The notes beneath the pieces are model-generated. The model worked only from the letters and a program-made list of their open reading frames with translations. It ran no database searches and was not told where the DNA came from. From positions 620,001-684,000 of the forward strand of contig NZ_CP108882.1 of the NCBI RefSeq assembly GCF_036347055.1: a DNA stretch of 64,000 nucleotides. Reading direction: 5' to 3'. Position numbers and translations under genes: made by a program. This DNA is from Streptomyces sp. NBC_00820. GTDB lineage: Bacteria; Actinomycetota; Actinomycetes; Streptomycetales; Streptomycetaceae. This document shows positions 8,815 to 18,244 of this stretch, one piece after another. The first letter of the stretch is position 1; each line of letters opens with the position of its first letter.

Positions 8815-10313
8815 GCTCCCTCCATCGCGCCGTCGCGGGCGGCCGGAGTGGTGCCCCGGGCGCGCCGAGCGCGCCGGGTGCCGTCGGACGGGGCGTCGCC
8901 GGGGATCGACAGGGAGGCCGCGCAGGCCGCGAGGGCGACGGCGCCCGCCATCGCGAAGGCCAGCAGATAGCCGTGCAGGGTGGGCACCGCGATGCCGCCG
9001 ACGAGGTTGCTGTGGTGCACGAGGACGGCGGCGACGGCGGCGCTGGAGACGGCCTGGCCGACGGTCCTCATCAGGACGTTGACGCCGTTGGCGGAGGCCG
9101 TCTGGCCGGCCGGTACGGCGCGCAGGATCAGGGTCGGCAGCGCGGAGTAGGCGAGCGTGGTGCCGCTCGCCACGACCGTCGCACCGAGGATGATCATCCA
9201 CAGGTCGCGGCTGTCGGCGATGCGCACCGCGTAGCCGCAGGCGATGACCGCGGCGCCCAGGGCGAGGGTGACGCGCGGGCCGCGTGCGGCGGAGATGCGG
9301 GCCGACACGGGGGACAGCAGCAGCATGGTCACGCCGCCGGGCAGCAGGCACAGGCCGGTGGCGACGATCGAGAGTCCGAGGCCGTATCCGGTGGCCTTCG
9401 GAGCCTGCACCAGCTGGGCGGTGACGAGCGAGTTGGCGTAGAAGGCGAACCCGGTGAGCAGGGCCGCCACATGGGACAGTCCGACCCGCGGCCGGGTCAC
9501 CAGACGCAGGTCGACCAGCGGCCGCTCGGCCCGCAGCTGCTGCCACCACCACAGGGCGAGGACGACGGCGGCCGCGACGAACAGCCCGAGGACCCGGGGA
9601 CTCCCCCAGCCCCACTGGCCGCCCTGGGAGACGCCCAGCAGCAGACACACCAGCGCGACGGCCAGACCGAGCGCGCCCAGGACGTCGAAGCGGCCCGGCT
9701 CCCGTACGGGCGACTCCCTGACCGCCCACCAGGTGGCCGTCACACCCAGCGCGCCCAGGGCACCGGTCAGCCAGAACATCGTGTGCCAGTCGGCGTACTG
9801 CACCACGACGGCGGCGAGCGGCAGGCCGAGGGCGGCGCCGATGCCGACGGTGGAACTCATCAGCGCCACCGCCGACCCCCGGCGCTCCGGCGGGAGTTCG
9901 TCGCGCAGGATGCTGATCGACAGCGGGACGACGGAGGCGGCGGCACCCTGCAGCGCGCGGGCCGCGATGAGCACCCCGATGTCGGAGGACAGGGCGCACA
10001 GCACGGAGCCGGCGGTCATCAGCGCGAGCGCGGCGATGAGCACCCGGCGCTTGCCGTACATGTCACCGGCCCGGCCGAGCACGGGTGTCAGCACCGCTCC
10101 GGAGAGCAGGGTCGCGGTGACCATCCAGGAGACGGCGGCCGCCGACGCCCCGGTCAGCCGGGGCAGGTCCGGCAGGAGCGGGACGACCACGGTCTGCATG
10201 ACGGCCATGAGGATGCCGCCCGACGCCAGCACGGGGATCGTGAGGCGGTCCCGCAGCCGGGGGGTCGCGCCGGGGGCGCGGGACGGCTCGGGTATCGGGG
10301 CGGAGGGGTCCAT
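8811..10313 (-). CDS. MFS drug exporter, 14-helix DHA2 type
   Basis: 500 residues with about 14 hydrophobic segments. The N-terminal part (ILMAVMQTVVVPLLPDLPR..AAAVSWMVTATLL) and the RAGDMYGKRR loop between helices 2 and 3 are typical of proton-driven multidrug exporters. GSAVALMSSTVGIGAALGLPLAA is the helix 5 antiporter region. ATG chosen because AGGAG lies 8 bases upstream. First gene of a two-gene operon with tetR. Expression is likely repressed by that regulator at the operator ~30 bases upstream. Substrate unknown. Confidence 0.9.
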   Translation of the reverse strand: MDPSAPIPEPSRAPGATPRLRDRLTIPVLASGGILMAVMQTVVVPLLPDLPRLTGASAAAVSWMVTATLLSGAVLTPVLGRAGDMYGKRRVLIAALALMTAGSVLCALSSDIGVLIAARALQGAAASVVPLSISILRDELPPERRGSAVALMSSTVGIGAALGLPLAAVVVQYADWHTMFWLTGALGALGVTATWWAVRESPVREPGRFDVLGALGLAVALVCLLLGVSQGGQWGWGSPRVLGLFVAAAVVLALWWWQQLRAERPLVDLRLVTRPRVGLSHVAALLTGFAFYANSLVTAQLVQAPKATGYGLGLSIVATGLCLLPGGVTMLLLSPVSARISAARGPRVTLALGAAVIACGYAVRIADSRDLWMIILGATVVASGTTLAYSALPTLILRAVPAGQTASANGVNVLMRTVGQAVSSAAVAAVLVHHSNLVGGIAVPTLHGYLLAFAMAGAVALAACAASLSIPGDAPSDGTRRARRARGTTPAARDGAMEGA

Positions 10314-10342
10314 CGGCGCTCCTGGAACTGCTCGGCGTTGAG

Positions 10343-10384
10343 GGTGAATCACTATTCACCCTATCGAGTGAATAGTGATTCACC
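10343..10384. promoter_or_regulatory. Double TetR operator: two nested palindromes inside a 17-bp inverted repeat
   Basis: GGTGAATCACTATTCAC at 10343-10359 and its exact reverse complement at 10368-10384 flank 8 bases. Each arm is itself a palindrome, GTGAAT-N4-ATTCAC (10344-10359 and 10368-10383), so there are two dimer sites 24 bases centre to centre, about two helical turns. It lies just upstream of the MFS start, the usual place for a TetR operator. Confidence 0.88.
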
Positions 10385-10407
10385 AACATTTCGCGGGCCG
10401 GCGCCCC

Positions 10408-11616
10408 CTAATCCCGGCGGGCCGACGAGCGGGCGTGCAGGGCGCGGGCGGCCCGGGGGCCGAGCCAGCGCTTGAGCCTGCGCAGGGGCTCCAGTTGCCC
10501 GGCCGCCTTGTCGAGGCCGTAGTACACCTGCGGCGGGATGTACGGGAGCAGCGGGGAGTGGCGCTGGCCGAGCAGCGCGAACATGCGGTGCGGCGGCAGG
10601 TCGATGTAGCGGGGCAGGTTCTCGTACCACTGGGCGCTGTAGCGGGCCGCGCTCTGCACGGAGAGCAGTTCGCTCCTGCGTCGGCTCTCGTAGGCGGTCA
10701 GGGCCTCGGGCACGGTGTCGTGCGCGCGCAGGGCGGTGGCCAGGCACATGGCGTCCTCCAGGGCGAGGGTGGTGCCCGCGCCGATGGAGTAGTGGGTGGT
10801 GTGGGCGGCGTCGCCGAGCAGAACGACGTTGCCGTGGTGCCAGCTGCTGTTGGTGAGGGTGCGGAAGTTCAGCCACGGGGTGGTGCCGGTGGCCGAGGGG
10901 CGGGCGATGAGGGGGTGGCCGTCGAGGACGCCGGCGAAGAGTTTCTCCAGCGTCGCGAGTCCCTCACCCTCGTCCGCACGGTCCAGGCCGAGTCCGGCGA
11001 AGGTCGACGGGGCGCACTCGACGACGCAGGTGCTGTGCCCGCCGCTGTAGCCGTAGCCGTAGGCCCAGATCCAGCCGTGCTCGGTCTCGGTGAACGCGAA
11101 GGTGAAGGCGTCGAACACCTTGGTGGTGCCGAGCCAGACGTAGTGGTTGCGGCCCGTGGTGATCCGCGTGCCGAAGTGTGCGGAGCGGCGCTCCCGCAGC
11201 GCGCTGCGCACCCCGTCGGCGGCGACCACGAGGTCGGCGCCGGCCGGGGGTTCGGTGATCTCGCTCTCGAACTCCAGCCGTACGCCCAGGGTCCGTGCGC
11301 GGTCGGCGAGCAGTTCGAGGAGACGGTGGCGGCCGATGCCGTGGCCCTGGTCGCCGTGGTGGCGCGTGGTCAGGTCCCGTACGTGGGCGACGCCGTCGCT
11401 CCAGCGGACCGAGTGCTCCTCGATCGCGCTCGCCGACGCGGGGTCGTGGGTCCGGAGCCTGTCGAGCAGCCCCTGCCAGTAGGTGACGCCCCAGCCGTAG
11501 GTCGAGCCCTCGGGGTCGCGTTCGTGGACGGTGACGTCATGGGCGGGGTTCTGCCGCTTGAGCAGGATGGCGAGGTACAGACCGGCGGGCCCGCCTCCGA
11601 CACAGACGACCTTCAC
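10408..11616 (-). CDS. FAD-dependent monooxygenase, salicylyl-CoA 5-hydroxylase (SdgC)-like
   Basis: 402 residues. GTG at 11616 (AGGGG 7 bases upstream) begins MKVVCVGGGPAGLYLAILLK, an N-terminal Rossmann FAD site. The following DVTVHERDPEGSTYGWGVTYW matches the salicylyl-CoA/anthraniloyl-CoA hydroxylase group rather than generic PHBH enzymes. The second FAD motif is LLGDAAHTTHYSIGAGTTLALEDA. Expected reaction: NAD(P)H-dependent ring hydroxylation of an aryl-CoA thioester. The CoA ligase and thioesterase or dioxygenase partners of the sdg pathway are not beside it, so the substrate is unproven. Confidence 0.82.
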   Translation of the reverse strand: MKVVCVGGGPAGLYLAILLKRQNPAHDVTVHERDPEGSTYGWGVTYWQGLLDRLRTHDPASASAIEEHSVRWSDGVAHVRDLTTRHHGDQGHGIGRHRLLELLADRARTLGVRLEFESEITEPPAGADLVVAADGVRSALRERRSAHFGTRITTGRNHYVWLGTTKVFDAFTFAFTETEHGWIWAYGYGYSGGHSTCVVECAPSTFAGLGLDRADEGEGLATLEKLFAGVLDGHPLIARPSATGTTPWLNFRTLTNSSWHHGNVVLLGDAAHTTHYSIGAGTTLALEDAMCLATALRAHDTVPEALTAYESRRRSELLSVQSAARYSAQWYENLPRYIDLPPHRMFALLGQRHSPLLPYIPPQVYYGLDKAAGQLEPLRRLKRWLGPRAARALHARSSARRD

Positions 11617-12675: not shown

Positions 12676-13470
12676 TCAGACGTCCCTGGTCTTCGGCATC
12701 TCGCCCTCGGTGGTCGTGATGTCGATCACCGAGAAGTTCGCGCCCTGCGGGTCGGTGAGCGCCGCGAACCGTCCGAAGGGGCTGGTCATCGGGCCGAAGC
12801 GCAGGACGGCGCCGTGCTCGGTGGCCTGGGCCACGGCCGCGTCGCAGTCGTCGACCGTGTAGTAGACGTTGATGTACGACGGCACCTCGGGCGGGAAGTC
12901 GTCGGTCATCCGCATCCGGCCGAGCACGGTTTTCTCACCGATGTCGAACATCCGGAAGTCGACCGCGTCGTCCTCGACGTCCTTCATCCGGTAGGGGAAG
13001 ACGGCGGAGAAGAAGGCGTCCGTCGCCTCCGGGTCACGGGTGAAGACCTCCGCCCAGCAGTACGCGCCGGGGGTCGCCGTCGCCTCGAAGCCCTCGTGGG
13101 CGCCCGGCTGCCAGACACCGAACACGGCGCCGCTGGGCTCGCGGGCCAGGCACATCGTGCCGAAGTCGCCGACCTGCATCGGCTCCATCAGCACGTCGCC
13201 GCCGTTCTCCCGGATGCGCTCCGCGGTCGCGGCCGCGTCCGGAGAGGAGAAGTACAGGCACCACTGCGACTGGCCCTCCTGGCCGGGCATCGGCGGGACG
13301 ACGGCGGCCACCGCCTTGTCGTCCACGAAGACCTGGGTGTAATTGCCGTACTCCGACGACGACTCGCCGAAGGTCCAGCCGAGGACCTCCCCGTAGAACC
13401 TCTTGGCACCCTCCAGGTCGGTGAACATCGCGTCGGCCCAGCAGGGCGTTCCTTCGGGTTGCACGGCCAT
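12676..13470 (-). CDS. VOC (glyoxalase/dioxygenase fold) protein, two tandem domains
   Basis: 264 residues with two beta-alpha-beta-beta-beta domains: [28 protein letters not shown] (from residue 7) and [26 protein letters not shown] (from ~137), each ending in the GDPQG/PSG-type strand. This resembles actinobacterial CFP30B-type proteins often annotated as hydroxylases. No clear metal-ligand set lets me name a reaction. It faces away from the 2-MIB operon and shares its upstream region. Confidence 0.82.
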
Positions 13471-13798
13471 GGTCGGGCCCTCTCGGTCGGGTGGGTTCGC
13501 CTTTTCCGCCCCGGGACATCACGCTAGCCATCCCTCGTTCCGCCCGCGCGCCGAAAGGCCGCGGCGTCCGTACACCAGGGCGCGGGAGCGGGGGACCGGC
13601 GCGCGATCACGGCGCGGGCGCCGAGTGCCCCCGGCAGCGGGTTTGCGCAACACGGAGATCAAAACCGCCCCTTTCGCGCTGTACCCGCAGCTCACGCGTG
13701 CTGTTTGGCTTGGCGCAGCGCACCGGCACCCGGCGCACCACCGACCGATCCGTTCACCGTTGTTCACCTCTGCTGTCCGCCTCTGTGATGGAGGGAAA
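13471..13798. promoter_or_regulatory. Control region between VOC gene and 2-MIB operon; GTTCACC direct repeat
   Basis: No gene is credible here. GTTCACC occurs at 13752 and 13762, ten bases apart, 31-47 bases before the shell gene start. GTTCAC(C/T) repeats are the core of Streptomyces PhoP boxes, but those have an 11-base period, so assignment is tentative. GGAGGG immediately before the GTG is the ribosome site. Confidence 0.4.
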
Positions 13799-15241
13799 GT
13801 GTCCACACCGGACATCGCCACCGCATCCACCGTCGACGAACCCGAACCAGTCCCCTCGGCCGGCGGGCAGCTCACGAGCCTGAGCACCCGGGCGGCCCGC
13901 CGGCTCGCCACCACGACCAAGTCCGAACCGCAGATGCAGGGCATCAGCTCGCGATGGCTGCTGAAGTCGCTGCCCTGGGTGGACGTGCGCGGCGGTACCT
14001 ACCGGGTCAACCGGCGCCTGCAGCTGCGCACCGGTCGCGGGCGGGTGCATTTCGAGCACAACGGCGCCGACGACATCCGGGTCGTTCCGCAGACGCTGAC
14101 CGAGCTGCCGATACTGCGCGGTTATCCGGACCTCGAGGTGCTGCGGGAGATCGCCTCCCGCTTCCAGCCCCGGGAGGTGCGGGCCGGACAGGTCCTGTTC
14201 GAGGCCGGGCAGCCGGTCACCGAGGCCTACCTGGTGGCGCATGGCCGCTTCACCCGCTACACGTCCGGCAAGTACGGGGAGGAGGAGGTCCTCGGGCTCG
14301 TCACGGGCGGCGACCAGATGGGTGACGAGGCGGTCGGGCACTCCGACCCGCTGTGGCTTGCCTCGGTCCGGGCGGAGACCGCGGGCGTGGTGCTGGTGCT
14401 GCCCTGGGCGGCCGTGCGGGACCTGACCGACCGCGTGCCCTCCCTCGACGCGCACCTGCGGGCGTACGTCGACCGGCAGGCCAGGCCCATGAACCGCAAG
14501 GGCGAGGCGGAGGTCCCCGTCCACGCCGGCCACGTGGGTGAACCGACCCTGCGGGGCGGCTTCGTCGACTACGAACTCGCCCCGCGCGAATACGAGTTGT
14601 CGCTCACCCAGACCGTGCTGCGGGTCCACAGCCGGGTCGCCGACCTCTACAACGATCCGATGGACCAGACACAGCAGCAGTTGCGGCTCACGGTCGAGGA
14701 GATCCGCGAGCGGCAGGAGTGGGAGCTGGTCAACAACCGGGAGTTCGGGCTGCTCCACAACATCGACCACGGGCAGCGGATCAGCACCCACACCGGACCG
14801 CCGACGCCGGACGACATGGACGAGCTGCTGACGATGCGGCGCAGCACCAAGGTGTTCCTCGCGCATCCCAAGGCGATCGCGGCCTTGTTCCGGCAGTGCA
14901 ACCGGCGCGGCCTGGTGCCGGGTACCGCGAACGTCGACGGGCGCGAGGTGCCGGCCTGGCGCGGTGTGCCGCTCCTGCCGTGCGGCAAGATCCCCGTCGG
15001 CGAGGACCACACCAGCAGCATCATCGCGCTGCGCACCGGCGAGGCCGACCAGGGGGTCGTCGGCCTGTACCAGACCGGCATCCCCGAGGAGTACCAACCC
15101 GGCCTGAACGTCCGCTTCATGGGCATCGACAGCGCCGCGATCATCAACTACCTCGTCACGGCCTACTACTCGCTGGCCATCCTGGTCCCCGACGCGGCGG
15201 GAGTCCTGGAGAACGTCCAGATCGGCCGGACGGCCGAGTGA
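13799..15241 (+). CDS. Family 2B encapsulin shell protein (cyclic-nucleotide-binding domain type, EshA-like)
   Basis: 480 residues. GTG 13799 chosen because GGAGGG sits just upstream and the protein then begins [10 protein letters not shown], as in relatives; the frame is open further back without a ribosome site. Residues ~45-75 are the N-arm ([26 protein letters not shown]). An inserted cyclic-nucleotide-binding fold spans ~105-225. The HK97-type P and A domains follow ([58 protein letters not shown]). In S. griseus the homologous shell encloses 2-MIB synthase (established knowledge). First gene of the operon, 16 bases from the next. Confidence 0.92.
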
Positions 15242-15257
15242 CGGCCTGGAGCACACC

Positions 15258-16310
15258 ATGAGCACACCCACCGACTCCTACACGCTGCCCGGTCCGCCGG
15301 ACATCGCCCGGAGCCTGCGCCCGCAGCGGCGCACCGGCACGATCCCCGGACTGCACCACCGGCCGGCCGTTCCCGCCGACCCGGTCAAGGCGGCCGAGGT
15401 CGACCGCCGGCTGGAGACCTGGGCGCGCGGCCTGGACCTGTTCCCGGAAGCCTGGAAGGGGGACTTCTCGGGCTTCCAGTTCGGGCGGGCCGTCGCACTC
15501 CAGCATCCGGGCGCCCTGGACCTGGAACGGCTGACGGTCGCCGGGCAGCTGCTGCTCGCCGAGAACGTCGTCGACTCCTGCTACTGCGAGGAGGACGAGG
15601 GCCGGGGCGGGGCGCGGCGCGGGCTCGGCGCCCGGCTGATCATGGCCCAGTCGGCGATCGACCCCTACCACGGCGTGCCGGAACTGGAGGAGGAGTGGCG
15701 GGAGGGCATGCGGGCCGACGGCCCCCTGCGCTCGTACCACTTCGCCCTCGCCGACTACGCGGCCTTCGCGACACCGAGCCAGACCGACCGGTTCGTGCAC
15801 GACATCGCCCGGCTGCACCTGGGCTATCTCGCGGAGGCCGCCTGGGCCGAGACCCGGCATGTGCCGCGGGTGTGGGAGTACCTGGTCATGCGGCAGTTCA
15901 ACAACTTCCGTCCCTGTCTGTCGATCGTCGACGCGGTGGACGGCTACGAGCTGCCCGAACAGGTCTACGCCCGCCCCGAGATCCAGCGGATCACCGCCCT
16001 GGCCTGCAACGCCACCACCATCGTCAACGACCTGTACTCCTTCACCAAGGAGCTGGCCAGCGACCCCGACCACCTCAACCTGCCCCAGGTCGTCGCGGCC
16101 AACGAGCGCCGCGGACTGAAGGCCGCCTATCTGAAGTCCGTCGAGATCCACAACCGGATCATGGAGGCCTTCGAGGAGGAGTCGGCCCTTCTGTCCGCCG
16201 GCTCGCCGCTCGTCGAGCGCTACGCCCAGGGGCTCGCCGCCTGGGTGTCGGGCAACCACGAGTGGCACGCCACCAACACCCACCGCTACCACCTGCCCGA
16301 CTACTGGTGA
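15258..16310 (+). CDS. 2-Methylisoborneol synthase (class I terpene cyclase), short N-terminus
   Basis: 350 residues. Cyclises 2-methyl-GPP to 2-MIB. The metal site ENVVDSCYCEE has Asp106 and Glu111, but the usual DDCYCED second Asp is Ser107 and its last Asp is Glu112. The NSE motif NDLYSFTKE (257-265) and C-terminal HRY are intact, as is LGYLAEAAWAETRHVPRVWEYLVMRQFNNFRP in segments. Only ~28 residues precede the conserved IPGLHHRPAV, whereas homologues such as SCO7700 have a disordered Pro/Gly-rich extension of ~100 used for encapsulin loading. ATG after a TGGAG site. Could make another methylated monoterpene such as 2-methylenebornane. Confidence 0.9.
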   Translation: MSTPTDSYTLPGPPDIARSLRPQRRTGTIPGLHHRPAVPADPVKAAEVDRRLETWARGLDLFPEAWKGDFSGFQFGRAVALQHPGALDLERLTVAGQLLLAENVVDSCYCEEDEGRGGARRGLGARLIMAQSAIDPYHGVPELEEEWREGMRADGPLRSYHFALADYAAFATPSQTDRFVHDIARLHLGYLAEAAWAETRHVPRVWEYLVMRQFNNFRPCLSIVDAVDGYELPEQVYARPEIQRITALACNATTIVNDLYSFTKELASDPDHLNLPQVVAANERRGLKAAYLKSVEIHNRIMEAFEEESALLSAGSPLVERYAQGLAAWVSGNHEWHATNTHRYHLPDYW

Positions 16311-16378
16311 CCGCCCCTACGGGCAACCGTCACCCGCTCTTCCGGAAACACCGTCATCTGCGCAACGAGGAGTCACCC

Positions 16379-17257
16379 TTGACGACCGCCCCCGTCGCCC
16401 GGACCGTACCGGCCGCCGTGCCGGCCCAGTCCACCTACCAGAACCGCGTCGCGGAGTACTGGAACGCCGAGGAGAACCCGGTCAACCTCGAACTCGGGAA
16501 GCTCGACGACCTCTACCACCACCACTACGGCATCGGAGCGGCCGACCGGACGGTCCTCGACGACCCCGACCCGGACCGCCGCAGGGACCGCGTCACGGCC
16601 GAACTGCACCGACTGGAGCACGCCCAGGCCGAGTTGCTCGCGGCCCACCTCGGGCCCCTCTCCCCCGCCGACCGGGTCTTCGACGCCGGCTGCGGGCGCG
16701 GCGGCGGCAGCGTCACCGCGCACCTGCGCTACGGCTGCCACGCCGACGGTGTCACCATCTCCGCCAAACAGGCCGACTTCGCCAACGAGCAGGCGCGCGC
16801 CCGCGGCATCGACGGCAAGGTCCGCTACCACCACCGCAACATGCTCGACACCGGCTTCACGACGGGCGCGTACGCGGCGTCGTGGAACAACGAGTCGACC
16901 ATGTACGTCGAGCTGGACCTGCTCTTCGCCGAGCACGCCCGGCTGCTGCGCCGCGGCGGGCGGTACGTGACGATCACCGGCTGCTACAACAACACCTACG
17001 GGCAGGCCTCGCGCGAGGTGTCGCTGATCAACGCGCACTACATCTGCGACATCCATCCGCGCTCGGAGTACTTCAAGGCGATGGCCCGCAACCGCCTGGT
17101 GCCGGTCCACGTGGAGGATCTGACGGAGGCGACGATCCCCTACTGGGAACTGCGCAAGGAGGCGGACCACCTGGTCACGGGCATCGAGGACGCGTTCCTC
17201 GACGCGTACCGCAACGGCAGCTTCCAGTATCTGCTCATCGTGGCCGACCGGGTCTGA
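16379..17257 (+). CDS. Geranyl diphosphate 2-C-methyltransferase
   Basis: 292 residues from a TTG codon 7 bases after GAGGAG; this start gives the same length as S. coelicolor SCO7701. The SAM-binding motif FDAGCGRGGGSVTAH is at ~101-115. YHHHYGIG (46-53), ASWNNESTMYV and the final GSFQYLLIVADRV are diagnostic of the family. It methylates C2 of GPP to give the substrate of the cyclase upstream. Last gene of the operon, followed by a strong hairpin. Confidence 0.95.
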   Translation: MTTAPVARTVPAAVPAQSTYQNRVAEYWNAEENPVNLELGKLDDLYHHHYGIGAADRTVLDDPDPDRRRDRVTAELHRLEHAQAELLAAHLGPLSPADRVFDAGCGRGGGSVTAHLRYGCHADGVTISAKQADFANEQARARGIDGKVRYHHRNMLDTGFTTGAYAASWNNESTMYVELDLLFAEHARLLRRGGRYVTITGCYNNTYGQASREVSLINAHYICDIHPRSEYFKAMARNRLVPVHVEDLTEATIPYWELRKEADHLVTGIEDAFLDAYRNGSFQYLLIVADRV

Positions 17258-17271
17258 CCCCGGCCGCCGGT

Positions 17272-17303
17272 AGCGGGGCGGTGTCGCCGGACACCGCCCC
17301 GCT
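17272..17303 (+). terminator. Terminator hairpin of the 2-MIB operon
   Basis: A perfect 14-base stem (17272-17285 with 17290-17303) and a GCCG loop begin 15 bases after the methyltransferase stop. There is no U-tract, which is common for Streptomyces terminators. Confidence 0.8.
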
Positions 17304-17353
17304 GTCCGTTGTCCGCTCGACAGGACCGGCGCCGGGGCCTTGGATGGGGGCTC

Positions 17354-18244
17354 ATGTGTGCGGTGAGGATGCGCGAGGACGAGATCACGATCGAGGTCCC
17401 GCTGGTCGAGCGGCTGATCGCCGGGCAGTTCCCGGCATGGGCGTCGCTCCCGGTACGGCGTCTGGCGTCGTCGGGCACCGAGAACGCGATGTTCCGGCTC
17501 GGACCCGACCTGGTGGTGCGGCTGCCGAGGTACCCGGGGGCGGTGGCCGACGTGACGCACGAACAGCGCTGGCTGCCCCGGCTCGGCCCCCGGCTGCCCC
17601 TCGCCACGCCCGAACCGGTGGGTCTCGGCGAGCCGGGCGAGGGCTTCCCCTGGCCCTGGTCGGTGTACCGCTGGCTGGACGGCGGCAACCCGGTGGCGGG
17701 CAGCGTCGGGCGACCGGAGCGGCTGGCCCGGGAGCTGGGCGCGTTCGTCGCCGCCCTGCGCCGGATCGACGCGGGGGACGGGCCGCCGGCGCACCGGGGT
17801 GTGCCGCTCGCGACCCGGGACGCCCCGACCCGCGCGGCCCTCGCCGAACTGGGCGGCCGGATCGACACGGCCTCGGTGACGCGCTTGTGGGAACGTGCGC
17901 TGCATGCCCCCGCGCACGCCGGTGCGGCCGCCTGGGCGCACGGTGACCTGTCCCCCGGGAACGTGCTCGTCGCCGGGGAACGGCTCACCGCGGTGATCGA
18001 CTTCGGGTGCGCCGGGGTGGGCGATCCCGCCGTGGACCTGATCGTGGCCTGGAATCTGCTGCCCGCGGGGGTCCGTGGCGTCTTCCGCGAGGCGGTGGGC
18101 GCCGACGACGCCGAGTGGGCGCGCGGGCGGGGCTGGGCACTGTCGATCGCGCTGATCGCGCTCCCGTACTACTGGCACACCAACCCCGCGCTGGCGGAGA
18201 ACTCCCGGCACGTGATCACCGAGATCCTGGCCGAGGCGGCGTAG
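17354..18244 (+). CDS. Aminoglycoside phosphotransferase (APH) family kinase
   Basis: 296 residues. The kinase core shows AWAHGDLSPGNVLV (catalytic Asp) and VIDFGCAGVGDPAVDLI (metal-binding DFG-like), with an N-terminal nucleotide lobe (SSGTENAMFRLGPDLVVRLPR). The pattern DLSPGN and the final AWNLLP..PYYWHTNP segment fit the MPH/HSK2-like branch common in Streptomyces. Substrate is unknown: aminoglycoside, macrolide or a primary metabolite. ATG 17354 follows a G-rich site; 17369 is an in-frame alternative. Confidence 0.85.
   Translation: MCAVRMREDEITIEVPLVERLIAGQFPAWASLPVRRLASSGTENAMFRLGPDLVVRLPRYPGAVADVTHEQRWLPRLGPRLPLATPEPVGLGEPGEGFPWPWSVYRWLDGGNPVAGSVGRPERLARELGAFVAALRRIDAGDGPPAHRGVPLATRDAPTRAALAELGGRIDTASVTRLWERALHAPAHAGAAAWAHGDLSPGNVLVAGERLTAVIDFGCAGVGDPAVDLIVAWNLLPAGVRGVFREAVGADDAEWARGRGWALSIALIALPYYWHTNPALAENSRHVITEILAEAA

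Follow-up and report, generated by a model that had tools for sequence, protein, structure and literature searches.

A short conserved tail on the terpene cyclase of a distinct clade of family 2B encapsulin operons, with loss of the shell in Actinacidiphila

Results

Genes and features of the operon

The window, by which we mean the whole analysed stretch of 64,000 nucleotides from Streptomyces sp. NBC_00820, carries on its forward strand three consecutive genes followed by a hairpin. The first gene (13799..15241, +; GTG start, 480 aa) encodes a family 2B encapsulin shell protein, which matches NF041163 (encap_f2b) with 709.4 bits over a cut-off of 400 and contains both the SrpI-like HK97-type domain (PF19307) and the cNMP-binding insert (PF00027); its best PDB chain is 9bhu, the shell of S. 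griseus. It is followed by a gene for a terpene cyclase, probably a 2-methyl-GPP cyclase of the 2-MIB synthase-like type (15258..16310, +; ATG start, 350 aa), whose score of 423.8 bits against NF041167 (cut-off 400) places it among the family 2 encapsulin cargo terpene cyclases, and by a gene for a geranyl diphosphate 2-C-methyltransferase (16382..17257, +; TTG start), recognized by 459.7 bits against NF041943 (GPPMT, cut-off 400). Folding energy points to a terminator-like hairpin at 17271..17304 (+), with -43.7 kcal/mol for the region and z = -5.05, and a T run is absent there. The operon of shell, cyclase, methyltransferase and hairpin, as given in the original prediction, was therefore confirmed at the same coordinates by three profile matches and a strong hairpin. 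Judged by these matches and by the trees described below, the operon belongs to a distinct clade of family 2B encapsulin systems with a single shell gene, in which that gene stands together with those for a short-tailed 2-methyl-GPP cyclase and for a GPP C-methyltransferase. The mark of two-component 2B encapsulins given in the accessible part of PMC12407261, another 2B shell gene no more than 10 kb away, was not found at the window locus.

The three genes are flanked by a gene for a glyoxalase-family protein (PF00903) at 12676-13470 (-) and by one for an APH-type phosphotransferase (PF01636) at 17309-18244 (+). Just 5' of the shell gene, at 13640-13713, blocks conserved in ten aligned relatives are situated around AACCGCCCC-TTTCGCGC and GCTGTTTGGCTTG, and these are a possible promoter or operator.

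Start, tail and motifs of the cyclase

The core of the cyclase starts at IPGL (residues 29-32) and is preceded by a tail of about 28 residues (codons 1-28, 15258..15341, +), which is in accordance with the short tail predicted for it. That the tail looks short because the start is wrong or the frame broken can practically be dismissed, since the cyclase frame contains no ATG, GTG or TTG between the last stop and 15258 and relatives carry the same tail; a longer true N-terminus from an upstream start was rejected on the same grounds. The expression “nearly tail-less” nevertheless proved too strong, because the tail is not featureless and is conserved across the clade with PGPP, a LARSLR-like piece and RRxG. 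In the window these are LPGPP (codons 10-14, 15285..15299, +), the middle piece DIARSLRPQ (codons 15-23, 15300..15326, +), which is a candidate shell-docking piece mostly missing from shell-less relatives, and RRTG (codons 24-27, 15327..15338, +), retained with and without a shell. In the AlphaFold2 model of the cyclase (m8073baab4ebd), built on 37 sequences, residues 1-25 have pLDDT < 50 and are predicted to be disordered, and the rest is mostly well folded (mean 81.2, pTM 0.83).

The Asp-rich motif of the window cyclase reads DSCYCEE (codons 106-112, 15573..15593, +) instead of DDCYCED, the form characteristic of 2-MIB synthases and present in 32/33 of the long-tailed ones, while the fold is that of 2-MIB synthase (3v1v / 4la6). 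Throughout the clade Ser or Asn takes the second place of this motif in 76 of 81 members and Asp (DDC) in three, with two unmatched. The first Asp is kept, as are Asn257, Ser261 and Glu265 of the second metal motif, which are invariant in 37 rows. The product of the clade is likely to be made from 2-methyl-GPP, because the methyltransferase is always present, and homology suggests that it could be “2-MIB”, an earthy-odour-type terpene.

The short-tailed clade and its shells

A contig scan for relatives of the cyclase found 177, and the best 80 of these were used, which together with the window gives 81 members. Among these best 80 of 177 the methyltransferase is situated downstream in all 80 and the shell directly upstream in 76. 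Four are without an adjacent shell: L112 lies at a contig edge, with just 426 bases upstream, and its cognate shell is on another contig of the same genome, while in L098, L099 and L102 the shell was lost. A cognate shell is present in the genome for 78 of the 81 members, window included, 77 of them beside the cyclase (alignments over 380 residues) and that of L112 elsewhere.

The best rows among the matches listed for NF041167 all score 485 or more, and the 40 regions taken for comparison from the top of these matches are long-tailed: 33 hold 2-MIB synthases (51-56% identity) and seven hold other encapsulin-linked cyclases with GPTGLGTSAAR-type tails. The latter have a methyltransferase nearby in 7/7, as in the window operon, and a 2B shell upstream in 4/7 within the fetched stretch, but they are only 37-39% identical and form a separate branch in the cyclase tree. 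In this tree of 72 rows, with 32 of the 81 short-tailed members, the short-tailed cyclases are united with support of 100/98 on a long stem (1.33 changes per column), and the long-tailed 2-MIB synthases make up a clade of their own (98/86). The shell tree, which holds 22 of the 77 short-type shells besides the cognate ones from the L112 and L090 genomes, likewise unites all of these (SH-aLRT 100) at the end of a long stem, with the 28 long-type shells in another clade. Because both trees split in the same way, shell and cyclase are seen to have diverged in parallel, and in these comparisons the short tail is the mark of a clade and not of one genome. The shells of the short- and long-tailed classes are 55-60% identical, which amounts to an overall difference of 40-45%.

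Conservation of the tail and comparison with GPTGLGT

With a rough choice of start, the length of the tail up to the core is 24-35 residues in 71 of the 81 members and at least 43 in the other 10, among them L102, whose value comes out too high, as there is no shell to bound the tail; counted by hand, the long tails used for comparison run from some 60 residues to well above 100. PGPP is present in 81/81 of the short-clade tails, the residues ahead of LPGPP are variable, and the spacing between LPGPP and the PGL of the core is 19-20 in 77/81. The Gly codon of PGPP varies among the 81 tails (GGC 30, GGG 28, GGA 17, GGT 6), and therefore it is the protein sequence that is under selection. Between LPGPP and the core there is an Ala in 69, a Leu, Val or Met in 68 and an Arg in 74 of the 81, and RRxG has majority fractions of 1.00 at residue 24, 0.95 at residue 25 and 0.99 at residue 27.

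A GPTGLGT-type motif was found in all 33 sampled long-tailed synthases. LPGPP and this motif are alike by eye, but the possibility that the former is a worn GPTGLGT was rejected because profile scans failed in both directions. On the 81 short tails the profile of the long motif did no better than on shuffles (median shuffle p 0.72, with the best site on PGPP in 26/81), and on the long tails the best site of the short-motif profile coincided with the long motif in 0/33. As was anticipated, the GPTGLGT-type motif proposed for loading was not found within residues 1-28, and by these scans the element carried by the short tail is a different one. According to the accessible part of PMC8346489, the first 100-120 residues of 2-MIBS-like cargo are usually unannotated and mostly contain the GPTGLGT consensus, which was suggested as the targeting sequence; the window cyclase, with its tail of ~28 residues and without the long motif, departs from this description. 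The accessible parts of PMC8346489 and PMC12407261 make no mention of a short-tailed clade or of shell losses, in a search that left most subscription journals and preprints outside and in which a single paper contained GPTGLGT.

A second LPGPP-like copy (shuffle p < 0.01) was detected in 4/22 longer tails (L057, L112, P0044 and P0055), a set in which some rows are redundant and two, L102 and P0024, are no true tails. In L112 the extra copies precede the position at which its database protein P0047 is annotated to begin, and the tail of P0047 itself yields p 0.31. In the control 4/33 long-tailed synthases reached p < 0.05 for such a copy. In the long-tailed L146 and L156, GPSGLGT is accompanied by a stretch of LPGPPSL or LPGPPSV (shuffle p 0.003 and 0.027).

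Loss of the shell in Actinacidiphila

The short-tailed cyclase is present in 19 of 35 Actinacidiphila genomes (78-84% identity), with the shell adjacent in nine of the 19 and missing in ten, A. paucisporea being an example of a shell-less species. The best 2B shell anywhere in the ten shell-less genomes is 56-58% identical to that of the window, in comparison with 73-83% in four shell-bearing controls. The methyltransferase gene was retained in 10/10, and in these ten genomes both enzyme genes persist without the cognate shell. The region upstream of the shell is still found ahead of the cyclase in nine of the ten loci, with differing end points and, in several of the nine, with a few codons of the shell start or end left; the tenth locus (L099) kept the last shell codons. 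In a tail-free tree three changes of shell state are needed, two of which are forced by well-supported branches. L190 (G417), with its broken cyclase frame, was left out of this tree and of the counts of tail against shell, and L174, which matches L081, was left out of the counts.

In these counts PGPP is retained in 10/10 shell-less and 82/85 shell-bearing loci (changed in L182, L185 and L186) and RRxG, under a loose definition, in 10/10 and 84/85. The middle piece, taken as [LVMAI]R, was found in 72/85 with a shell and 1/10 without, and a full-length linker in 82/85 and 1/10; the rows are not independent and the patterns were picked after the tails had been seen, which makes the Fisher values descriptive only. 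The linker was shortened about once, in a subclade which still holds the shell-bearing L174 and L177. The contrast in the middle piece by shell state, resting on about one ancestral shortening, is no more than suggestive. The shell-less branches sum to ~1 change per site (a hand estimate which assumes losses at the base of each group), and at the average rate of the core about four changes would be expected in the four residues over these branches. Because PGPP shows none, a function apart from the shell is probable for it. Among the long-tailed synthases 5/33 (L137, L143, L153, L162, L164) are without a shell of >66% identity to the long-type query; their genomes hold other shells and the long motif is kept, which makes the retention of a motif after shell loss weak evidence either way.

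A second family 2B shell in the genome

The genome from which the window comes is a single 8.1 Mb contig, and the only other 2B shell above the cut-off (774.9 bits) is situated ~4.8 Mb off. At this second locus (G000:C1:5395975-5397324; L120:7817-9334 and 9447-10616) a gene for a polyprenyl transferase (NF041169, 482.4 bits) stands after the shell, which gives this shell family another type of cargo here, and LPGPP was not found in the first 118 residues of the transferase. Loading of the cyclase via the second shell was set aside in view of this neighbor, though loading in trans is still conceivable.

Discussion

The reading that we favor, with a probability of roughly 45%, is that the short clade-specific tail serves the co-diverged shell and that the cyclase is loaded through this minimal tail. 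In shell-bearing species the cyclase would be carried inside the shell by a tail of roughly 20 residues, composed of LPGPP, the LARSLR-like piece and RRxG and used instead of the GPTGLGT tail found on ordinary 2-MIB synthases. Docking would most likely fall to the middle piece, and PGPP and RRxG probably serve the enzyme too, because both survive the loss of the shell. PGPP as a pure tag is a weakened reading, at least from the distribution of the motif, since its retention in 10/10 shell-less and change in 3/85 shell-bearing loci is not what such a tag would predict. On the side of the shell, a luminal loop, at residues 373-390 of the shell, was suggested for cargo loading in the accessible part of PMC12407261. 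Its consensus in the short-tailed class is VPGTxxVDGHEVP, as against YPDHVDLGGQQVP, which speaks for loading through the tail, as do the genes beside the cyclase, the parallel divergence of shell and cyclase, the conservation and predicted disorder of the tail, the additional LPGPP-like copies and the contrast in the middle piece. It speaks against such loading that the 22 class-fixed shell positions all fall outside this loop and that the shells of the two classes differ so widely overall. Confidence in loading through the tail is held at the given value because the fixed differences of the shell miss this loop and because the extra copies in L112 are maybe outside the protein. Of the ways out offered by the original prediction, a minimal signal is thus favored, though unproven, while unenclosed working found support in one sub-lineage, the Actinacidiphila with 10 of 19 genomes shell-less.

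A serious, though less likely, rival is that the tail is an element of the enzyme itself, for example one that orders as a lid over the active site on substrate binding, and that loading proceeds via the folded core, or weakly. Such a role would fit both the retention of PGPP and RRxG in all ten shell-less genomes and the nearly fixed distance to the core, but it accords less well with the predicted disorder of the tail, with the repetition of the motif in a small number of longer tails, and with the apparent absence of the tail from the model of 4zq8. The latter, a terpene synthase of Streptomyces lydicus, is the best PDB match of the window cyclase (84% identity); no essential difference between the two was seen, and it has the LPGPP tail, which is also found in the S. 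lydicus locus of the clade (L069). Its aligned range begins from residue 28, with 321 residues modelled, and LPGPP is probably unseen in the crystal structure. Literature naming 4ZQ8 was not found in the search, which left most subscription journals and preprints outside.

We consider it a serious rival, but an unlikely one, that the cyclase of the clade works mainly unenclosed, with the shell as a dispensable partner. The ten Actinacidiphila genomes which retained the cyclase and methyltransferase genes without a cognate shell, and the nine loci among them in which the upstream region of the shell was kept ahead of the cyclase, speak for it. On the other hand, 78 of the 81 members retain the cognate shell, and the loss of the shell is not special to short tails, as the five of 33 long-tailed synthases without a near shell indicate.

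Returning to loading through the short tail, the ordinary Streptomyces 2-MIB/2B operon differs from that of the window in several ways. The S. coelicolor 2-MIB synthase (3v1v, 4la5, 4la6) is 52-54% identical to the window cyclase, whose tail is ~90 residues shorter (its residue 26 aligns with residue 116 of the chain). The window cyclase is without GPTGLGT and has DSCYCEE in place of DDCYCED, and its shell belongs to a separate clade, apart from ordinary operons such as that with the S. griseus shell (9bhu). On the loading in S. griseus cited in the original prediction no paper was found, in the same search that left most subscription journals and preprints outside. One could imagine, although we give this fuller history little credence, that a bipartite tail of roughly 20 residues, read by a co-diverged shell, replaced GPTGLGT, that its LARSLR-like part docks and its other elements, PGPP and RRxG, work for the enzyme, and that in one lineage the docking piece shrank before the shell was deleted, with at least two losses in all and an unenclosed pathway left. 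If this were true, the shell-less lineage would show what encapsulation is worth. With a candidate tag of so few residues the clade bears on the choice of cargo by family 2B shells, and its close relatives with and without a shell make the value of encapsulation for the synthesis of odorant terpenes directly testable.

Some single loci show further rearrangements. In L203 (G400) deletion of the shell has seemingly left its start region fused in frame with the tail of the cyclase. The short-tailed cyclase of L212 (G417) has its frame broken near residue 68 and a more divergent shell (67% identity) beside it, and this operon is possibly decaying. In P0024, a database protein of 389 residues, the end of the shell reads straight into the cyclase, which may be a natural fusion or a sequencing error.
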